Assembly (NCBI GenBank): GCA_947488305.1
Contig: CANKZM010000001.1
Location: 496,001 to 560,000 of the forward strand
Length of the DNA: 64,000 bases
Reading direction: 5' to 3'
DNA from: an uncultured Roseobacter sp.
GTDB lineage: Bacteria; Pseudomonadota; Alphaproteobacteria; Rhodobacterales; Rhodobacteraceae
The notes below the pieces were generated by a model. That model searched no databases. It was not told where the DNA came from and saw only the letters and a program-made list of their open reading frames with translations. Shown in pieces: positions 1 through 39,707 of the stretch (positions are counted from its first letter, which is position 1; each line of letters opens with the position of its first letter). The position numbers and the translations under genes are program-made.

Positions 1-1275
1 AAGCAGCTCAGGCCGGGTCATATCATTACTGTCGATCTTGGTCAGTGCACAGAGGTCAAACAGCAGGTCTATTGGAAAGCAAAACCAAACGAAGATTCGT
101 CACTCACGTTTGATGACGGTTTGGCGGCTTTCGGGGGGCGGTTTTCAGAGAGCGTCAGAAGGCACCTCTTGAGCGATGTCGCCGTAGCGTCATACTTGTC
201 CGCGGGTTTCGATTCAGCTTCGGTTTTTGCGCAGGCGTCCAGCGAATATGGAAGTGGCTTGACTGCCTATACCGGGCGATTTGACCGGGGCAGCGAATGG
301 TACGACGAAACCGGACCTGCGGGTGAGTTAGCTGATGCGCTGGGTCAGAAACACATTAAGGTCGACATTGATCCGACTGATTTAATTGATGACCTTGACG
401 ACATTACCAACGCTTTGGATGAGCCTCGTATGGGCATGGGCGCCTTCTCGCAATATGCAGTCGCAAAGCGTGCGGCGCAGGATTACAAGGTGATCCTGAC
501 AGGCCATGGCGGCGACGAACTGTTTTCTGGCTATCCCGTTTTCGCCTATGCAAAGAGCGGTCTGTTGGGTTTGAGAAAGGTGTCAGAGGCACCCCATTTT
601 ATATACTTTGCGCTCTCGCGGTTTTTGGGACGGATAAGGCCCGAACAGGGAAGAGGGCTGCCGGTGTTATGGTCGGTGGCGGAACAAGCCTCTTTGACAG
701 GGGCAAATGTGTCTGAGTTGCATCCATGGCAGATGTTGGATGAGTTCACTGCTGATGCCATCTCGCCAACAGATCGTATTTTGCTAACCTATCTGAATGC
801 CTACCTGCCAGGACTTTTGATTGTCGAAGACAAGATATCAATGGCGCATTCCCTTGAGGCGCGCACACCGTTTCTCGACAATGAAATGCTTGATCTGAGC
901 CTATCCATACCTGGTTCGATAAAATTGTTCGGAGGGCAACTCAAAGCGGTGGTGAAGCAAAACGCCCGAAAAATCCTGCCTCCGGTGTTCTTTGAGCAGC
1001 CTAAGCGCGGGTTTCCTACGCCCTTGCGGTATTGGCTACGTCGGGAACTCGCAGATTTCATGCGAGACCGGCTGACAGGCCCAGACAGTTACCTGAAAGA
1101 CGTTCTCGACCCCGATCAAACTCAAAAGATTGTGCAATCCTACCAAAAGTCGTGGCGTAGACATCTCCGCCCGTTGGATGAAATCCAAAGCCACAAGATC
1201 TGGCAGCTACTAAGCCTCGAAAGTTGGTTGCGGGTCTGGTCTACCCGGTATGGCGTAAAATTGAGGCTCGAATGA
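1..1275 (+). CDS. Asparagine synthase-type glutamine amidotransferase, 5' truncated
   Basis: The frame is open from the first base, so only the C-terminal 424 residues are seen; the N-terminal glutaminase domain must lie upstream. The opening LRPGH...YW stretch matches the linker between the glutaminase and synthetase domains of class B asparagine synthases, so the internal TTG at 121 is not the start. Synthetase-domain signs are SAGFDS (199-216) at the ATP PP-loop, GHGGDELFSGY, EDKISMAHSLEARTPFLD and PKRGFPTP. The usual PP-loop is SGGxDS, so the second residue is changed from Gly to Ala. Its stop overlaps the next start (ATGA). Family members in polysaccharide clusters are thought to amidate sugar acids or act on other carboxylates, which is my inference here; free asparagine synthesis is the alternative. 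Confidence 0.85.
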   Translation, partial: KQLRPGHIITVDLGQCTEVKQQVYWKAKPNEDSSLTFDDGLAAFGGRFSESVRRHLLSDVAVASYLSAGFDSASVFAQASSEYGSGLTAYTGRFDRGSEWYDETGPAGELADALGQKHIKVDIDPTDLIDDLDDITNALDEPRMGMGAFSQYAVAKRAAQDYKVILTGHGGDELFSGYPVFAYAKSGLLGLRKVSEAPHFIYFALSRFLGRIRPEQGRGLPVLWSVAEQASLTGANVSELHPWQMLDEFTADAISPTDRILLTYLNAYLPGLLIVEDKISMAHSLEARTPFLDNEMLDLSLSIPGSIKLFGGQLKAVVKQNARKILPPVFFEQPKRGFPTPLRYWLRRELADFMRDRLTGPDSYLKDVLDPDQTQKIVQSYQKSWRRHLRPLDEIQSHKIWQLLSLESWLRVWSTRYGVKLRLE

Positions 1276-2183
1276 GCATTTTGCGTGTAGTGGTCGCGTT
1301 ATTGGCGGCTGCAGGAATTGGCTGGCTTGTCTATTGGGACATCGAAAACCCACAAGTTTCATTTATTTCCAGCTTTTTTGCGGCTCAAATACCGTCCGTT
1401 GCCGTTTTGGTTTTGCTGGGCTGGCGGACGCGATATCTTTCAAATTTATTTTTGTCCTTCAAGACAGCCGTCTACGGCAATGCGCTCGCAGTTGCGGGAA
1501 CACTTTTTCTGCCTGCTCGGTTGGGAGATCTAGGAAAACCTCTGTATTTTAAGGCGTTAAGCGGGTTTCCGGCATCCAAGGGTCTGGTGCTTGTTATCGA
1601 GGAACGCATCTGGGATTTCGTAGGTTTGGCCATGCTGGCTATCCTGACGTTGTACCTCATCGGCGAGCAGGCGGAGAGCGCGGCCCTGCTGACAGCGAGT
1701 TACGTCACGATGACAATTGCTGTTGTGGGCCTGTTTTGCATTCTCGTACTGCCGCGACTTGTGACCCACATCCCGTTCCTTGCCAGCTTGGAGGCCAAGT
1801 ATGAGTTGTTCGGGGTAAAATCGACCAAGCAGATATTGACGCTTCTTGTTTCATCATTGCTGATTTGGACTGCGTCGCTTGCGATTTTGATTATAGCCTA
1901 TCACTTTACCGGATTGCCGGAATTGAGATTTGCTCAACTCCTATTCCTGTTCGTTGCATCGACCCTTGGTCTGGTGATTTCTGTTACTCCCGGTAGTATC
2001 GGAACCTACGAGGGAGCGATTGTCGCGGTGCTGGTCGGGTTTGATGTAAGTTGGGATTCTGCGCTGGCTTTTGCCATAGGGTTTCGCCTGACTTGGTTGG
2101 CTCTTCCCGTTGCTCTCGCCACATACGCGGTAGTGGCCGACGCTAAACTTCTTGCCTTGATCAAAAGTTATAAGGCCAGTTGA
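1272..2183 (+). CDS. Lysylphosphatidylglycerol synthase TM-region (UPF0104/AglD-like) membrane protein
   Basis: This 303-residue protein is almost entirely hydrophobic, with about seven or eight membrane segments. It resembles the flippase-like membrane domain of MprF/AglD (UPF0104) proteins: an early GWRTRYLSNLF stretch, PARLGDLGKPLYF, EERIWDFVGL, and a late SVTPGSIGTYEGAI motif typical of the family. I chose the ATG at 1272 because it overlaps the preceding stop as ATGA, implying translational coupling; an earlier in-frame GTG/ATG would run far into the upstream gene. No soluble aminoacyl-transferase domain is present, so lysyl-PG synthesis is not expected. In a glycan cluster it more likely helps move or process a lipid-linked intermediate, which is inference. 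Confidence 0.75.
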   Translation: MSILRVVVALLAAAGIGWLVYWDIENPQVSFISSFFAAQIPSVAVLVLLGWRTRYLSNLFLSFKTAVYGNALAVAGTLFLPARLGDLGKPLYFKALSGFPASKGLVLVIEERIWDFVGLAMLAILTLYLIGEQAESAALLTASYVTMTIAVVGLFCILVLPRLVTHIPFLASLEAKYELFGVKSTKQILTLLVSSLLIWTASLAILIIAYHFTGLPELRFAQLLFLFVASTLGLVISVTPGSIGTYEGAIVAVLVGFDVSWDSALAFAIGFRLTWLALPVALATYAVVADAKLLALIKSYKAS

Positions 2184-31990: not shown

Positions 31991-33250
31991 ATGCGCAGAG
32001 TAGTTGTCACAGGCCTTGGTCTGGTTACGCCTTTGGCGGATGGGGTAGAGGCAAGCTGGTCCCGCATTCTGGACGGCCAGTCCGGTGCGGGTCCGATCAC
32101 GGGCTTTGACGCGAGCAAACTGGTCACGCAGTATGCTTGTGAAGTGCCTTTGGGCGATGGGTCTGGCGGGACGTTCAATGCGGATGCGTATCTTGCGCCG
32201 AAGGAACAGCGCAAGGTCGACACTTTCATTCTCTTTGGTTTGGCAGCCGCTGAACAGGCTGTTAAAGACGCTGGATGGATGCCGGAAGACACCGAAAGCC
32301 TTGAGCGAACAGGTGTTCTGATTGGCTCTGGCATCGGCGGGTTGAACTCAATTGCCAACACGGCGGTTATGATGGCTGAAAAAGGACCGCGCCGGGTCTC
32401 GCCCTTCTTTGTACCGGGCGCGTTGATCAACCTCATATCGGGTCAAGTCAGCATCAAATATGGGTTCAAAGGGCCAAACCATTCGGTTGTAACGGCTTGC
32501 TCGACGGGCGCGCATGCAATTGGGGATGCCAGCCGGTTAATCCAGCATGGTGATGCGGATGTCATGATTGCGGGCGGCGCTGAAGCGGCCATCTGCGAGA
32601 TTGGGATTGCCGGGTTTAACGCTTGCAAAGCTCTGAGCACCAAGCGTGGCGATGACCCGCAAAAAGCCAGCCGCCCCTATGATGCAGATCGCGATGGGTT
32701 TGTAATGGGAGAGGGCGCAGGCATCGTCGTGTTGGAGGAATACGAACACGCCAAGGCACGCGGTGCCAAAATCTATGCAGAGGTTTTGGGGTATGGCTTG
32801 TCGGGCGATGCCTATCATATCACCGCACCGTCGGAGGATGGCGAGGGCGGCGAGCGCTCCATGCGGAACGCGCTGCGAAACGCTGGATTGGAGCCCAAAG
32901 ATGTGGATTACATCAATGCGCATGGGACGTCTACAATGGCCGATACCATTGAATTAGGCGCCGTTGAACGGTTGATGGGCGACCATGCAAGCAATGTCAC
33001 CATGTCATCCACAAAGTCCGCAACGGGGCATCTGTTGGGTGCTGCCGGTGCGATCGAGGCGATTTTCTCGATCCTTGCGATCCGCGATCAGGTCGCTCCG
33101 CCTACGATTAACCTCGACACTCCGGCGGTAGAGACAGCAATTGATCTTGCGCCAAATGCCAAACGTCCGCGCGAGATCAATGTGGCCTTGAGTAATTCCT
33201 TTGGCTTCGGCGGCACCAACGCGAGTGTCGTCTTTGGGAAGCCCGGCTGA
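31991..33250 (+). CDS. fabF: 3-oxoacyl-ACP synthase II
   Basis: The ATG at 31991 (GGGGG 8 bp before) gives 419 residues. The Cys-His-His condensing triad is present: TACSTGAHA (Cys170), NAHGTSTMADT and SATGHLLGAAGA. It elongates acyl-ACP with malonyl-ACP. Its stop overlaps the mltG start (TGATG), so both are translated together. Confidence 0.95.
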   Translation: MRRVVVTGLGLVTPLADGVEASWSRILDGQSGAGPITGFDASKLVTQYACEVPLGDGSGGTFNADAYLAPKEQRKVDTFILFGLAAAEQAVKDAGWMPEDTESLERTGVLIGSGIGGLNSIANTAVMMAEKGPRRVSPFFVPGALINLISGQVSIKYGFKGPNHSVVTACSTGAHAIGDASRLIQHGDADVMIAGGAEAAICEIGIAGFNACKALSTKRGDDPQKASRPYDADRDGFVMGEGAGIVVLEEYEHAKARGAKIYAEVLGYGLSGDAYHITAPSEDGEGGERSMRNALRNAGLEPKDVDYINAHGTSTMADTIELGAVERLMGDHASNVTMSSTKSATGHLLGAAGAIEAIFSILAIRDQVAPPTINLDTPAVETAIDLAPNAKRPREINVALSNSFGFGGTNASVVFGKPG

Positions 33251-34416
33251 TGTGGCGACATATCGCATCCAATGCGGTGACCCTTTTGATCGTACTGCTG
33301 TTCATGGGGGGCGGGGTGATCTTATGGGGGAAAGGCCAGTATGATGGCGCGGGTCCGCTAAGCGCCGCCTATTGTGTCGAAGTCCCAAGCGGATCGAACA
33401 TGCGGCGTGTCAGCGAACGTCTGGAAGAGGACGGCGCGATCCGTTCCGGTGCGATTTTCCGTATGGGAGCAGATTACGCCGAGAAGGCCAGCCAGTTGAA
33501 AGCAGGTAGTTATCTCGTACCTGAAGCGGCCTCGATGTCGCAGATCGTTGATACGATCACCCGTGGTGGCGCGAGCACCTGCGGAACTGAGGTCGTTTAC
33601 AGAATTGGCGTGAACCGGATCGGCGTGCAGCTTCGCGAATTGGAACCATCGACCAATCAGTTCGTGGAAAAGGCCAACTTCAATCCTGCTGAAGAGGATG
33701 CTCCCGAAATTTACGTGGACCGCAAAGCGTCTGCTGGCACTCGGTTTCGGGTGGCGCTCGCCGAGGGGGTTACTTCCTGGCAGATCGTTGAAGGTTTGAA
33801 GGCCATGGATATTCTGGAGGGAACAGTCGCTGAATTGCCGCCGGAGGGCGCTTTGGCACCCGATAGTTATGAGGTACGTCCAGGCGATACGCGGGAAGAT
33901 GTGCTTGCCCGTATGCGCACGGCTCAGGAAGAGCGGGTCGCACAGGTTTGGGAAACCCGTGCCGAAGGCTTACCTATCGAGACGCCAGAGGAGCTCTTGA
34001 TCCTCGCCTCCATCATAGAGAAAGAAACTGGCGTGGCCGAGGAACGAGGGCAGGTTGCCAGTGTTTTCGTAAACCGCCTGAACAGAGGGATGCGTCTGCA
34101 AACGGATCCAACGGTAATCTACGGCGTGACGGAGGGACGCGGCGTCTTGGGACGTGGTCTGAGGCAAAGTGAATTGCGCGCAGCGACCCCTTGGAACACC
34201 TATGTCATCGAAGGGCTTCCACCTACACCCATTGCGAATCCGGGGCTTGCCAGTCTTGAAGCAGCAGCCCAACCGCTCGAGACACCCTACATCTTCTTTG
34301 TGGCTGATGGCACAGGTGGTCATGCTTTTGCCGAAACGCTGGCTGAACATAACCGCAATGTGGCCGCTTGGCGCCGGATTGAGGCGGAGCGCGCCAACCA
34401 ATCCACCAACAATTGA
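33250..34416 (+). CDS. mltG: Endolytic murein transglycosylase MltG
   Basis: The 388-residue protein has one N-terminal membrane anchor (SNAVTLLIVLLFMGGGVIL) and the YceG domain with catalytic Glu257 in ASIIEKETGVAEERGQVASV and the conserved RGMRLQTDPTVIYG. It cuts nascent glycan strands in the periplasm and affects their length. Translationally coupled to fabF. No terminator is visible between its stop and the GTA promoter. Confidence 0.93.
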   Translation: MWRHIASNAVTLLIVLLFMGGGVILWGKGQYDGAGPLSAAYCVEVPSGSNMRRVSERLEEDGAIRSGAIFRMGADYAEKASQLKAGSYLVPEAASMSQIVDTITRGGASTCGTEVVYRIGVNRIGVQLRELEPSTNQFVEKANFNPAEEDAPEIYVDRKASAGTRFRVALAEGVTSWQIVEGLKAMDILEGTVAELPPEGALAPDSYEVRPGDTREDVLARMRTAQEERVAQVWETRAEGLPIETPEELLILASIIEKETGVAEERGQVASVFVNRLNRGMRLQTDPTVIYGVTEGRGVLGRGLRQSELRAATPWNTYVIEGLPPTPIANPGLASLEAAAQPLETPYIFFVADGTGGHAFAETLAEHNRNVAAWRRIEAERANQSTNN

Positions 34417-34664: not shown

Positions 34665-34997
34665 ATGACTTTACTAACCCCAGAGCACGTAGAGTCCGAG
34701 ACCGAAAATCTTTTGAATTCGGTCATCGGAACGATCAAGGATTTACGCCAGGAACTGGAAGGCCTGAAAGAAAAGGTCCGGTCGGGCGAAGATCTTGAAC
34801 AGACGCAGGACAAAAGAACGGTGTCATCGGCAACGGCGCTTTTGAAGACCTGCCAGGAAGTGGAGAATCGTCTTGTCGAATGTCGTAGCAAAACAGCCGG
34901 AATCGCAAAAGGGGGCTATGCCCTCGATCTTGAGCGGGCCCGGATTGAGATCGGGTGCAAGCTGGATCGCCTCCGCGGCACGACACGTGCAGGATGA
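34665..34997 (+). CDS. Small GTA g1-like protein (small terminase candidate)
   Basis: The 110-residue protein is helical and charged (TENLLNSVIGTIKDLRQELEGLKEKV, then LLKTCQEVENRLVECR), with a coiled-coil-like N-terminal half. Its position directly before a large-terminase frame matches g1 of Rhodobacter-type gene transfer agents, where g1 acts as the small terminase. It has GAGG about 10 bp before the ATG. Identification rests on context more than on sequence. Coding overlaps the start of the next frame. Confidence 0.65.
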   Translation: MTLLTPEHVESETENLLNSVIGTIKDLRQELEGLKEKVRSGEDLEQTQDKRTVSSATALLKTCQEVENRLVECRSKTAGIAKGGYALDLERARIEIGCKLDRLRGTTRAG

Positions 34998-37392
34998 GTT
35001 TCTTGACAACCTGACGGAGGGAGAGCTTCTGGCTCTCCCTTTTCTGTTCGAGTTCTGGGCGCTTGATCATCAGTTGCCGCCGGAGGGCGACTGGCGAACC
35101 TGGGTGATCATGGGGGGGCGCGGCGCTGGCAAGACCCGTGCAGGCGCGGAATGGGTCCGTGCGCAGGTCGAAGGAGCAAAGCCATTAGATGAGGGGCGCG
35201 CACGACGTGTCGCCTTGGTTGGGGAGACCATTGACCAGGTGCGTGAGGTAATGATCTTTGGTGACAGTGGCATTCTGGCCTGTTCACCCGAGGATCGACG
35301 TCCGGTTTGGGAGGCGGGTCGCAAACGTCTGGTCTGGCCCAACGGCGCGATCGCTACGGTGCATTCGGCGTTTGATCCCGAAGGATTGCGCGGCCCGCAG
35401 TTTGACGCAGCCTGGGTCGATGAAATGGGCTGTGCCGCAATCGACAAGGGCACCAACCAGCCCAACAAGTTCATCGACTCAAAGTCATCTGAAAGCAGTT
35501 TGCCACAATATTCAAACGGTGCGCGAGACGACTTGATACAGGCCCAATACCTCAAGGCGATGGTGTCATTCTGGGCGGATGAAGCCAACAACCCGGTATC
35601 GGCCAGCTATGGCGCGCCAATGGTGGACATGAACCGTGCTTTCGTGTGGGCATGGGACGCGCGGCCTTATCCCTACTTTCCGAACAATCTGTCGTTGTGG
35701 AGCGACTCGGAGAATTATAGCCGGGGACATTGGGTCAATGGACGTACATCTGCACGTGCGTTGTCGTCAGTCGTTGCAGAAATATGTCTGAAAGCCGGAT
35801 TGACGGACTTTGATACATCGCAACTCTACGGTGTTGTACGTGGCTACGTCATAAATGACGTTTCAGAGGCGCGTGCCTCTCTTCAGCCCCTGATGCTGCG
35901 TTATTCTTTTGATGCGGTCGAACGCGATGGCGTTCTTACGTTCAAGATGCGGGATCGCCGGGGGTCCGTATCACTGGATCGGGAGCAGCTTGCGCTTTCA
36001 ACGGACCTCGACGCGACTGTCGAACAGATGCGGAAGGCAGATGCCGAAGTTTCCGGGCGGGTTCGATTGCGGTTCCTTCAGGCAGATGCCTCATTTGATG
36101 CATTGGCAGAAGAGGCGGTATTGGCAGATGAAAAAACTCACTCTGTTGCAACATCCGAGATTCCGATTGCTTTGACCCGCGTCGAAGGCCGTCAGGTTGT
36201 TGAACGCTGGCTCACAGAGGCGCGGGTCGCACGGGATGTCATCCGGTTTGCCTTGCCGCCGTCTCTTTTGTCCTTGGGGGCTGGCGATGTGGTTTCACTG
36301 GCAGCAGAGCAGCAAGAAGGTCCAGCGCTTTACCGGATCGACCGAGTGGAACAGGGAGCCTTGCAAGTGGCCGAAGCTGTTCGCATCGATCCTGAGGTCT
36401 ATGTCGCCTCCGATATGCCGGATGAAGTTGAAAGCCCGAAAGCATTTGTGCCGCCCGCTCCGGTGTTCCCGTTGTTCATGGATTTACCCCTGATCAGTGG
36501 CGACGAAATCCCCCATGCACCATATATCGCCGCGACGGCGGACCCATGGCCCGGATCAGTTGCGGTCTACCAATCACCGGGCGAAAGCGATTATCAGCTC
36601 CTCAACGTCCTTTCGGCTCAATCTGTCGTTGGCGTCACGGAAAGCGCTATGATCTCAGCGGCTCCGGGCCGTTTTGATGAGGGCAAAGGCCTTCGGGTCA
36701 AATTGCTCAGCGGCAACCTCACCAGCGTTGATGACTCAGCCTTGATTGCTGGCGCAAACCTTGCCGCAATTGGGGACGGCACCGCGGGCAATTGGGAGGT
36801 TTTCCAGTTTGGAAACGCCGAGCTTGTGGACATCGATACGTACGATCTGACCCACCGCTTGCGAGGGCAACTTGGCAGCGACGGACTGATACCAGATTCC
36901 TGGCCAACAGGGTCGTGGTTCGTCTTGTTGAATGGACTACCGGAACAAATCGGTTTGTCGCGGAATCTCCGTGGTATCTCGATGAATTACCGTATTGGAC
37001 CAGCACGTCGCCCGATTGATGACCCCTCTTATATCGACGAGACGCAGGTGTTTGCGGGAAATGGTCTCCGGCCTTACGCGCCCGCTCACCTGACAGCGGA
37101 CAACACCCAGTCTGGTGGCCACAAGTTCAACTGGATCCGCCGAACACGGATTGACGGCGACACATGGGATACGCCGGAAGTGCCCTTGGGTGAAGAAAGC
37201 GAAAGCTACATGATACGCATTTCGCAGGCCGATGAGGTGCTGCGAGAAGTCATTGTGGAGGAACCAGCCTGGGTTTATACGCTGTCCGAACAGGCGGCAG
37301 ATGGCGTATCGGGGAGCTTTGATATCTCTGTTGCGCAGATCTCCGCGACCTATGGGGCAGGGCTGTCGGTTGCCCTAACGGTAAACAATTAA
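34873..37392 (+). CDS. In-frame fusion: GTA large terminase N-terminus joined to g15-type tail protein C-terminus
   Basis: This single 839-codon frame joins two GTA genes normally many kilobases apart. Residues ~45-184 match the terminase ATPase part: LPFLFEFWALDHQLPPEGDW, Walker A GGRGAGKTRAG and Walker-B-like FDAAWVDE (Asp183, Glu184). From ~186 (GCAAIDKGTNQPNKF) to the end it matches the C-terminal half of the last GTA structural gene (g15 megatron/host-specificity protein): DSKSSESSLPQYSNGARDD, NNPVSASYG, FVWAWDARPYPYFPNN and NGRTSARALSSVV. The junction lies near 35416-35433. The terminase nuclease domain and the whole portal-capsid-tail block are missing. Starts at GTG 34873, ATG 34918 or GTG 34987 are possible. 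No stops or frameshifts occur across 2.5 kb. Most likely a deletion relic; expression of a chimeric protein is possible. Confidence 0.85.
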   Translation: MSNVVAKQPESQKGAMPSILSGPGLRSGASWIASAARHVQDEFLDNLTEGELLALPFLFEFWALDHQLPPEGDWRTWVIMGGRGAGKTRAGAEWVRAQVEGAKPLDEGRARRVALVGETIDQVREVMIFGDSGILACSPEDRRPVWEAGRKRLVWPNGAIATVHSAFDPEGLRGPQFDAAWVDEMGCAAIDKGTNQPNKFIDSKSSESSLPQYSNGARDDLIQAQYLKAMVSFWADEANNPVSASYGAPMVDMNRAFVWAWDARPYPYFPNNLSLWSDSENYSRGHWVNGRTSARALSSVVAEICLKAGLTDFDTSQLYGVVRGYVINDVSEARASLQPLMLRYSFDAVERDGVLTFKMRDRRGSVSLDREQLALSTDLDATVEQMRKADAEVSGRVRLRFLQADASFDALAEEAVLADEKTHSVATSEIPIALTRVEGRQVVERWLTEARVARDVIRFALPPSLLSLGAGDVVSLAAEQQEGPALYRIDRVEQGALQVAEAVRIDPEVYVASDMPDEVESPKAFVPPAPVFPLFMDLPLISGDEIPHAPYIAATADPWPGSVAVYQSPGESDYQLLNVLSAQSVVGVTESAMISAAPGRFDEGKGLRVKLLSGNLTSVDDSALIAGANLAAIGDGTAGNWEVFQFGNAELVDIDTYDLTHRLRGQLGSDGLIPDSWPTGSWFVLLNGLPEQIGLSRNLRGISMNYRIGPARRPIDDPSYIDETQVFAGNGLRPYAPAHLTADNTQSGGHKFNWIRRTRIDGDTWDTPEVPLGEESESYMIRISQADEVLREVIVEEPAWVYTLSEQAADGVSGSFDISVAQISATYGAGLSVALTVNN

Positions 37393-37506
37393 GGGTAAAT
37401 CTGACGGGCTTCCAATTCATTCGGGTTCGGAATAAGTCTCATCACAGCTTTGCATTTGGCGTTTGGTTCGCAAATGACTACTGTAAAGACCGAAAGGATG
37501 AATGTG

Positions 37507-38319
37507 ATGGCGACACCAAAACCAAATATTTCTGCCGTTGATCCGGTTTGGGACCAGATCAATGCGGAGGCCCGGCATGCCGCATCTGACGAACCGCTTA
37601 TGGGTGGGTTTCTTCACGCGTGCATCCTGCACCACAAGAGCATCGAGAAAGCGCTCTCTTACCGCATTGCGGCGAAATTAGCCTCAAATGAGATGTCGAT
37701 GGTTGTGGTGCGTGAGATGGTGGAGGAAGCCTACGCCTCTGACCCGTCGCTGGTTCAGGCGGCGCGTGCCGATCTTGTGGCCATCTACGAACGAGACCCT
37801 GCTTGCCATCGCCTGCTGCAACCGATCCTGTTCTTCAAAGGATACCAAGCGATTCAAGCTTACCGGGTTGGCCACCACTTGTGGCAAAAGGGACAGCGGG
37901 ATCTAGCGTATTTCGTCCAGATGCGTGTCTCGGAAATCTTTGGGGTGGATATCCACCCGGCTGCGCGGATTGGCAAAGGTATCATGATTGACCATGCCCA
38001 TTCGATTGTAATCGGAGAGACGGCAGTGGTTGGCGATAACGTCTCGATGCTGCACTCGGTGACCTTGGGCGGTACCGGCAAAGAAGAAGAGGACCGCCAT
38101 CCCAAGATCGGCGATGGGGTTTTGATTGGCGCAGGGGCAAAGGTTCTTGGCAACATCAAGGTCGGCAACTGCAGCCGCATCGCTGCCGGTTCGGTGGTGC
38201 TGGAAGAGGTTCCGGCTTGCAAAACGGTGGCGGGTATTCCCGCCCGGATCGTTGGCGAGGCGGGTTGTGATCAACCTGCAGTCTCCATGAACCACATGCT
38301 TGGACCGCACGATAGCTGA
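37507..38319 (+). CDS. cysE: Serine O-acetyltransferase
   Basis: The ATG at 37507 with AAAGGA 8 bp before gives 270 residues, close to the usual 273. The helical N-terminal domain (DPVWDQINAEARHAASDEPLMGGFLH) is followed by hexapeptide repeats with GVDIHPAARIGKGIMIDHAHSIVIGETAVVGDNVSMLHSVTLGGTGK (residues ~140-190), including the catalytic Asp-His pair DHA. It makes O-acetylserine for cysteine synthesis. It directly follows the GTA remnant, an arrangement I recall from GTA-bearing Rhodobacterales. Confidence 0.95.
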   Translation: MATPKPNISAVDPVWDQINAEARHAASDEPLMGGFLHACILHHKSIEKALSYRIAAKLASNEMSMVVVREMVEEAYASDPSLVQAARADLVAIYERDPACHRLLQPILFFKGYQAIQAYRVGHHLWQKGQRDLAYFVQMRVSEIFGVDIHPAARIGKGIMIDHAHSIVIGETAVVGDNVSMLHSVTLGGTGKEEEDRHPKIGDGVLIGAGAKVLGNIKVGNCSRIAAGSVVLEEVPACKTVAGIPARIVGEAGCDQPAVSMNHMLGPHDS

Positions 38320-38337
38320 AACGCGGTGAACTGATTG

Positions 38338-38372
38338 AAAAGAGCCGGAAGCAGTTGCTTCCGGCTCTTTGT
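38338..38372. terminator. Bidirectional terminator between cysE and pdhC
   Basis: A twelve-base stem AGAGCCGGAAGC / GCTTCCGGCTCT with an AGTT loop, flanked by A- and T-runs, separates the convergent genes. Confidence 0.85.
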
Positions 38373-38402
38373 TTTTTCGTTGTCGTTTGGTGATGTCAGG
38401 CG

Positions 38403-39707
38403 TTAGGCCAGCATCGTCATCGGATTTTCAAGATTGTCCTTAATTGCGGTCAGCAGCTGTGCACCAAGTGCTCCATCGATCACCCGGTGATCGACCGACA
38501 GTGTCACAGACATCACTGTCGCAACCGCCAATTCACCATCTTTGCCGACAATTGGCTTCTTGACGCCTGAGCCAACCGCAAGGATCGCACCGTGTGGTGG
38601 GTTGATAACCGCATCAAAGTTATCAATTCCAAACATGCCAAGGTTCGAGATCGCAAAACTGCCGCCCTGATACTCATGGGGTGCAAGTTTGCGGTCTCGG
38701 GCGCGACCGGCCAAATCCTTCATTTCAGCCGACAGGGCCGAGAGAGACTTCATCTCGGCGTCTTTCAGTACAGGTGTGAACAGCCCACCCTCAATTGCAA
38801 CCGCGACGGCAACATCTGATGGTTTCAGTTTGAGCATACGGTCCCCGGCCCAGACTGCATTTGCGTCAGGCACAGTCTGCAGTGCCAAAGCGCAGGCCTT
38901 GATGATAAAGTCATTGACCGAGAGCTTCACGCCGCGCGCTTCGAGTTGTTTGTTCAACTGACCCCGGAAGGCAAGCAGAGCATCTAGTTCGATATCGCGT
39001 CGCAGATAGAAGTGCGGAATGGATTGCTTTGCTTCGGTAAGCCGGGCGGCAATCGTCTTGCGCATGCCATTGAGGCTGATTTCCTCATACTCGCGCCCAT
39101 CGTACATCGCCATAACGGCATCAGCTGCGGGTCCAGCCGCAAGGGCCGGGGCAGATGCTGCAGCAGGTGTAGCAGCCGAGGAGGCCGCCGCTTTGGGTGC
39201 AGCGCTGGCGCCTTCCACGTCTGCTTTTACGATGCGACCGTGCGGACCACTTCCTTTGATCGATGTCAGGTCGAGACCCTTGTCCGCCGCAATGCGCCGC
39301 GCCAATGGTGACGCAAAAACGCGTGAACCGTCTGCCGCCTGGGGAGCTGCGGGTGCCGGCGCAGCGGCCGCAGGAGCGGCTTTCGCGGGCTCAGAGGGTG
39401 CTGCATCGGAAGGGGACGGTGCAGCGGCCGCTGGCGCTGCATCGGAAATGTCATCGGCGCTTTCGCCTTCTTCCAACAAGATGGCGATGGGCGTATTGAC
39501 CTTCACGCCTTCGCTGCCTTCTTCGATTAGAATTTTGCCAATGGTACCTTCGTCCACGGCTTCAAATTCCATCGTCGCCTTGTCGGTTTCAATCTCGGCC
39601 ATGATGTCACCGGAAGAAACAGTATCGCCTTCCTTGACCAGCCATTTGGCCAGCGTGCCTTCTTCCATCGTGGGGCTGAGGGCGGGCATCAGAATTTCGG
39701 TAGGCAT
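38403..39707 (-). CDS. pdhC: Pyruvate dehydrogenase E2, dihydrolipoamide acetyltransferase
   Basis: The 434-residue protein has one lipoyl domain (1-80, lipoyl lysine in [13 protein letters not shown]), an Ala/Pro-rich linker, a peripheral-subunit-binding domain ([18 protein letters not shown], ~130-165) and the catalytic domain ending with the [12 protein letters not shown] active-site motif. It passes the acetyl group to CoA. It is last in the pdhA-pdhB-pdhC operon, 12 bp from pdhB. Confidence 0.95.
39530..39707 (-). repeat. Lipoyl-domain DNA repeat, copy in pdhC
   Basis: The first ~180 bp of pdhC are nearly the same, base for base, as the first ~180 bp of pdhB (40922-41099); by eye roughly 95 percent over the best 140 bp, including third codon positions. 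See the second copy. Confidence 0.8.

Follow-up and report, generated by a model that had tools for sequence, protein, structure and literature searches.

In the Rhodobacterales, the closest described system to the locus analysed here is the RcGTA-type head-tail cluster, which occupies the same locus, contains the same terminase and megatron parts, has the same neighbours and is intact in close relatives. The gene cysE1 has been described as lying directly downstream of this cluster (PMC9552610). Recurrent loss of the gene transfer agent (GTA), a domesticated virus that carries DNA from cell to cell, is already known: in PMC10883770, pseudogenised or lost clusters are read as cheater lineages, and non-producers are expected to occur as cheaters. 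Incomplete GTA clusters are called abundant in PMC9765227, and PMC6209664 states that most GTA clusters do not fit into the particles they encode and that DNA from producers can repair defective alleles of non-producers, with no such repair in the other direction. How GTA production persists against non-producers is a debated and modelled question in these papers.

The window, a stretch of 64,000 nucleotides from an uncultured marine Roseobacter sp. (own genome 4.80 Mb in 31 contigs), lacks about 11.3 kb of the structural genes of the RcGTA-type cluster, and likewise represents a non-producer from a producer lineage. The losses in PMC10883770 are described in general terms, whereas the present ones show an identical in-frame join again and again, with a frame that is mostly open. 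GTA loss in the Rhodobacteraceae repeatedly shows one exact in-frame deletion allele, and losing the GTA seems to follow one fixed genetic route. The literature on GTA loss, fusion and deletion, searched by title and beginning of abstract, with supplements and subscription papers outside the search, returned no paper on the join among the matches listed, and terms for the join had no counterpart in the available text of PMC10883770, PMC9836097, PMC6821227 and PMC9765227.

The terminase–megatron chimera in the GTA slot

The first-pass annotation of the window had described a single 839-codon frame with a terminase ATPase start and a GTA tail end, a structure confirmed by Pfam and NCBIfam (coordinates in the table below). 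The Pfam matches comprise Terminase_6N at residues 79–185, GTA_TIM at 175–270, which covers only profile positions 204–299 of 299 (the last third), and the two C-terminal megatron domains, Phage-tail_3 at 331–493 and Rcc01698_C at 585–684. The NCBIfam model GTA_megatron (NF048004) is matched only from profile position 640 to 1298 of 1299, with 792.8 bits, which is below the curated cut-off of 800. As in the large terminase subunits of phages and GTAs, the chimera keeps the motifs that are here taken to be Walker A, at residue 81, and Walker B (..WVDE); with the Terminase_6N match, the terminase ATPase motifs are therefore present, and both are invariant in the 17 fused rows aligned. The terminase frame of intact relatives continues after Walker B with a TTTPR stretch and what is presumably the nuclease domain, whereas the chimera lacks everything after Walker B and switches to megatron at residue 185. 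The likelier start is ATG 34918, which is preceded by a purine-rich stretch and would give a protein of 824 aa.

Features of the chimeric locus, with an insertion in a fused congener (window positions unless stated otherwise)
Feature	Position	Strand	Remarks
Chimeric open frame	34873..37392	+	839 codons from TTG; ORF scan, Pfam, PHROGs, NCBIfam
Terminase large subunit part, residues 1–183	34873..35421	+	Walker A (from 81) to Walker B Asp (D183 codon, 35419–35421)
Join, Glu codon GAA (E184)	35422..35424	+	Codon shared by terminase (..WVDE) and megatron (..WFTE)
Megatron (GTA baseplate protein), C-terminal half	35425..37389	+	About residues 662–1316 of the G003 protein
110-aa ORF in place of GTA g1 (small terminase position)	34665..34997	+	Upstream of chimera, retained
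Left flank, fabF and mltG	31994..34416	+	NCBIfam
Right flank, cysE (serine O-acetyltransferase, +) and pyruvate dehydrogenase E2 (−)	37450..39707	.	NCBIfam
IS3-type element	L122 (G001 contig C159), ~696–1885		NCBIfam

The sister-strain comparison that had been proposed for this locus uncovered an intact cluster in a genome of the same genus (G003, taken as Roseobacter sp. H9). There the counterparts of the two halves lie in separate genes, a 471-codon terminase (93% amino acid identity over residues 16–185 of the chimera) and a 1316-codon megatron (76% identity over the megatron half), between which lie members of the portal, prohead protease, capsid, connector, tail tube and baseplate hub families. 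The earlier claim that the structural cluster had been lost is thereby upheld, the deletion relative to G003 amounting to 11,342 bases; the aligned terminase and megatron blocks are 10,913–11,864 bases apart in 41 intact clusters, compared with 7 bases in the window. The fusion occurs at one place only in its own genome, which gave no match when searched with the capsid and portal of G003, in line with the earlier expectation that no GTA particles should be made unless another copy exists. Among 26 fused genomes searched, the own genome included, none had a close match to GTA capsid or portal, although both intact controls did; distant homologues were found in a few of the 26 (capsid at 29–36% identity in 5, portal at 31% in 1).

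The locus is thus a GTA-null allele: about 11.3 kb has been deleted inside a chromosomal RcGTA-type head-tail cluster, from terminase codon 185 through the portal, protease, capsid, connector and tail genes and on through the first half of megatron, so that the remaining parts of terminase and megatron form an in-frame chimera. Since these structural genes are deleted, no particle should be formed from this locus. The chimera occupies the position of the GTA cluster in the chromosome, flanked by mltG and cysE. The upstream ORF in the place of g1 owes its name to position only, having no match in Pfam, PHROGs or NCBIfam, and an 84% identical ORF is found at the same spot in G003. Second megatron-like genes, at 35% identity, were observed in relatives within the genus (G003:C14:83922-85883, G005:C13:68823-70781 and G013:C3:3745860-3747614) and possibly belong to prophages or to a second GTA-like element.

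Recurrence of the same join across the family

A scan of named genomes with the chimera gave, among the best 80 of 189 relatives, collinear matches of about 2.5 kb in records whose titles include Tateyamaria, Sulfitobacter, Marimonas, Ruegeria, Brevirhabdus, Thioclava, Celeribacter, Rhodobacter, Defluviimonas and others. Every fused frame hit by both patterns, Walker A and tail motif, carried them in one reading frame, 342 bases apart. With a join-spanning query of 234 aa, the join was found to be spanned in 17 of the 394 genomes of a family set holding about one genome per genus (own genome included), in 10 of 54 Ruegeria genomes, in 3 of 16 Thioclava genomes and in 2 of the 19 genomes of the window's own genus. 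The terminase and megatron pieces are separate in the other 13 Thioclava genomes and, by listed positions, in 36/54 Ruegeria genomes, while 8/54 Ruegeria genomes have lost or damaged the cluster otherwise; the fused genome G182 has a single congener in the set, which is intact. Altogether at least 37 fused genomes were found, 36 of them in the frame survey after removal of second copies, with G001 in addition. The first-pass annotation had treated the event as peculiar to one strain, a view that is overturned by the same domain order in at least 36 other genomes.

The join falls at the same codon in 32 fused genomes that were aligned, as well as in the Ruegeria and Thioclava sets and in G001, with the terminase ..W-x-D-E running in frame into x-G-C-..-megatron at the GTA locus, as in the window. 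The residue after the join Glu (L, M, Y, F, I or T) varies like the megatron residue at that position. Within the bases examined in 35 fused genomes, mltG lies upstream in 32/35 and fabF in 31/35, and pyruvate dehydrogenase E2 lies downstream in 29/35; L046, L058, some divergent loci and contig ends are exceptions to the common slot, and the ORF at the g1 position is recognisable in 18 fused genomes. An allele joined at the same codon is therefore scattered over the family beside close relatives with an intact cluster.

No terminase–megatron fusion at another codon was seen among the Ruegeria matches listed, and L327, first considered a partial join, proved to be an ordinary terminase. A class-level search outside the family (109 of 385 genomes with a match, including five from the family itself) revealed no join, a weak negative in that only about 30 out-of-family genomes had two or more matches. 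The join was also sought as mobile cargo and was found neither on plasmids (14 records matched, none covering 80% of the query), nor on the 30 phages listed of 110 matched, nor on the best 80 of 429 viral contigs. The one phage record covering at least 80% of the query does not carry the join: its match is a full-size tail protein, about 1,327 codons long, that follows tail genes.

Homology at the join and ancestry of the two halves

Short homology had been suggested to guide the deletion, an idea that the intact clusters do not bear out. Of 82 intact clusters, 23 have no exactly matching base through the join, 44 have an exact run of 1–4 bases and 15 one of 5–8 bases, so that 67 of the 82 have at most 4 bases and none more than 8, and longer exact runs occur at a median of 18,378 of the 614,760 in-frame codon pairs between both genes. 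An earlier test of 41 clusters, covering a wider area in 18-base windows, had the same outcome; both tests rule out a microhomology hotspot as the cause, and the homology explanation of the join is rejected on these alignments. No shared DNA motif beyond the positions determined by amino acids was visible by eye at the join. In the intact megatron of G003 (L124 12930-16877), residues 635–684 match the Pfam glycoside hydrolase family GH113, with a whole-protein score just above the cut-off; this stretch holds the conserved Glu of the join, which may therefore lie near a TIM barrel catalytic residue.

The ancestry of the terminase half (T) and the megatron half (M) was assessed in family trees of 73 and 72 rows, respectively, the frameshifted L160 being left out of the M tree and of the sliding alignment, and L045 and L167 out of the pair profile along the sequence near the join. 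The fused label needs 14 changes on the T tree, at least 5 of them forced by well-supported branches, and 15 on the M tree, at least 11 of them so forced. In T the window itself clusters with intact G003 (99/78), and in M it joins the intact G003/G011/G013/G018 clade. A single fused clade, unlike these family trees, is also rejected by the AU test in Ruegeria (30 intact, 10 fused; p-AU 0.00044 for M and 0.0000059 for T), where the fewest-change counts are 9 (T) and 7 (M). With three outgroup rows added, fused Ruegeria rows are mildly clustered in M (8 label changes, against a shuffled mean of 10.7) and not clustered in T (10 changes, against 10.6–10.7).

The two halves resemble local intact relatives right to the last 15 bases. 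In the bases beside the join, 11/150 and 21/150 differences separate fused rows from their nearest intact row, compared with 23/150 and 35/150 from their nearest fused row; spread from a distant fused donor leaving a tract was discarded, as no fused–fused excess is present near the join. G001, the other fused genome of the window's genus, is not sister to the window; five segments all place it as the sister of intact G009, at 100% bootstrap. The megatron start EYGCASVDKG is common to G001 and its intact sister (G009/L202), so that the join of G001 stands in a different local sequence from that of the window, which again speaks against a strain-specific event. In a Thioclava group of three fused genomes and one intact genome, which are 2.5–3.9% apart in T and 6.4–7.9% apart in M, the only private bases that all three fused genomes have in common are at the join; at the start of M one member is like intact L369 and the others are like intact L368, and the clustered site patterns of the trio suggest mosaic tracts. 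The residue Q196E, considered as a fusion-specific convergent change, was dropped, being present in 10/31 fused but also in 9/41 intact rows.

State of the frames and readings of the recurrence

The frame is open over at least 800 codons in 31 of the 36 fused genomes surveyed, among which L055 is counted despite a stop in the megatron block. Stops or frameshifts occur in L160, L172, L247 and L045, while G001 (taken as MAG Roseobacter sp. Ww482) carries an IS3-family insertion of two ORFs inside the megatron half. In L249 (G463; taken as Ruegeria sediminis) the fused frame is open over 1310 codons, 488 of them upstream of the terminase block, and this extension either lengthens the fusion at its N-terminus or is open by chance.

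The proposal to compute dN/dS on each half led to a divided answer. Omega on 14 fused branches is mostly low, at 0.03–0.38 (T) and 0.004–0.11 (M), compared with 0.014–0.101 (T) and 0.009–0.24 (M) on 10 intact controls, with three M fits on fused branches saturated and the sister also fused in one triplet; omega on most fused branches is thus near that of intact genes, with some relaxation. In contrast, neutrality is not rejected for T of L173, nor, on the short branch of G001, for T and the outer M beyond the insertion (omega 0.57 and 0.23), and omega of L055 is raised (0.12, compared with 0.025). Private N:S changes in the M half of the Thioclava trio are 35:60, one of the 35 being a counting artefact of a double change, compared with 8:13 in the intact sister. 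At all 55 + 81 positions that never vary in 82 intact rows, the window protein has the invariant residue, whereas fused rows on average break 0.72 such sites in T (0.11 for intact rows) and 1.94 in M (1.31 without the frameshifted L160; 0.37 for intact rows), a comparison that leaves out eight loci duplicating genomes in the set and in which the fused rows are also further from their nearest intact row. The low omega values cannot be placed after the fusion, since no pair of genomes certainly goes back to the same event (the candidates from the Thioclava trio and L253/L254 are ambiguous) and since gene conversion would look alike. The earlier suggestion that the frame is either recent or kept may accordingly be widened: the mostly intact frames may result from selection, recency or gene conversion.

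The reading that is tentatively preferred, with a probability of about 0.4, is that the GTA-null deletion is a single old allele, which has been maintained in species or has spread between them while recombination with GTA-positive relatives renewed its flanks. The join would most probably have arisen once or very few times and have since lasted or spread in the form of a non-producer allele. Since GTA-positive neighbours carry a terminase and a megatron homologous to its halves, incoming DNA would repeatedly overwrite each half with local sequence up to the join, where homology ends; pairing between DNA of an intact donor and the fused chromosome would extend no further than that point, and tracts ending there are to be expected. 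Such overwriting would keep most frames open and the halves local-looking, and the chimera would not need to have a function. A GTA particle carries too little DNA for the missing 11 kb, so the allele would be refreshed and not cured by GTA, which fits the GTA literature in that a deletion of 11 kb is hardly restorable by producer DNA. Support comes from the single codon, the mostly common slot, the scatter beside intact kin, the local halves, a join site that homology leaves unexplained, the 31 open frames and the mostly low omega, and this reading is preferred because it alone accounts for the single codon without a new mechanism.

Several observations stand against the old allele. Conversion must have reached the join in essentially every lineage, and no residual shared tract was found, a result that fits repeated origins equally well. 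The fewest-change counts in the family and in Ruegeria also weigh against it, sharing over many genera needs a long-lived polymorphism or transfer between genera, and the join was absent from the plasmids and from the phages and viral contigs listed. Both alleles were never seen in one species, the collections holding one genome per species. Mixtures of independent deletions and a refreshed old allele may constitute a third reading of the pattern.

Independent exact deletions, on the other hand, need selection or a targeted process, because homology gives no preference and because fusions at other codons are missing among the Ruegeria matches listed. Repeated adaptive fusion, in which deletions arise everywhere in huge populations and only the exact useful chimera is kept, is considered rather unlikely. 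It would exchange a strand ending in Glu for another strand ending in Glu and combine the nucleotide-binding part of terminase with the C-terminal half of megatron. The constancy of the codon despite slight homology, the open frames, the omega values on fused branches, the N:S ratio of the Thioclava trio and the retention of all intact-invariant sites in the window are consistent with it. It is opposed by the broken copies (L045, L160, L172, L247 and G001), by the branches on which neutrality is not rejected, by the greater number of invariant sites broken in fused rows, by the rarity of clades formed by fusions and by AlphaFold models of the whole chimera and of residues 30–309, in which pLDDT is below 50 at and after the join (from 15 and 17 sequences only).

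A mutational hotspot, at which a putative site-specific nuclease or recombinase acts on both sites and the copies are young, is unlikely. Exact recurrence with local sequence on both sides and scatter beside intact kin would follow from it, but long homology is missing, no motif was seen by eye beyond amino-acid-determined positions, and few decayed copies were found; if the copies were neutral with 31/36 still open, nearly all of them would presumably have to be very young. It is quite improbable that a putative targeted excision mechanism of the Rhodobacteraceae cuts the GTA body precisely between the Walker B codon of terminase and the corresponding Glu codon of megatron, converting producers into non-producers, and has acted independently in about 20 lineages. 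A single recent deletion in this strain with short homology as guide, although the deletion itself is real, is very improbable and is refuted as a sufficient account by the other fused genomes and the ordinary homology at the join. An assembly artefact is hardly credible: the join is known from assembled sequence alone, but its presence in 36 other assemblies, 37 in all, including L160 (4.19 Mb contig), L359 (4.02 Mb contig) and the MAG records L045, L054, L055 and L078, argues against it, as does the lack of a capsid or portal match elsewhere in the own genome.

The join provides a concrete, PCR-detectable non-producer allele, always the same and found beside intact close relatives in several genera, so that allele frequency, age, spread and cost become measurable. 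If it is one old allele, it would represent a polymorphism of a cooperative trait common to several species; if it arises anew each time, it would point to targeted deletion or a useful chimera.

GTA remnants without the join were also encountered. In L128 (G021), L129 (G031), L114 and L214 (G282), the terminase and megatron pieces are 0.4–6.5 kb apart, and G436, G438, G442, G461, G464, G467 and G482 contain the terminase alone or in part. These remnants have different end points and offer material for comparing other routes of GTA loss.
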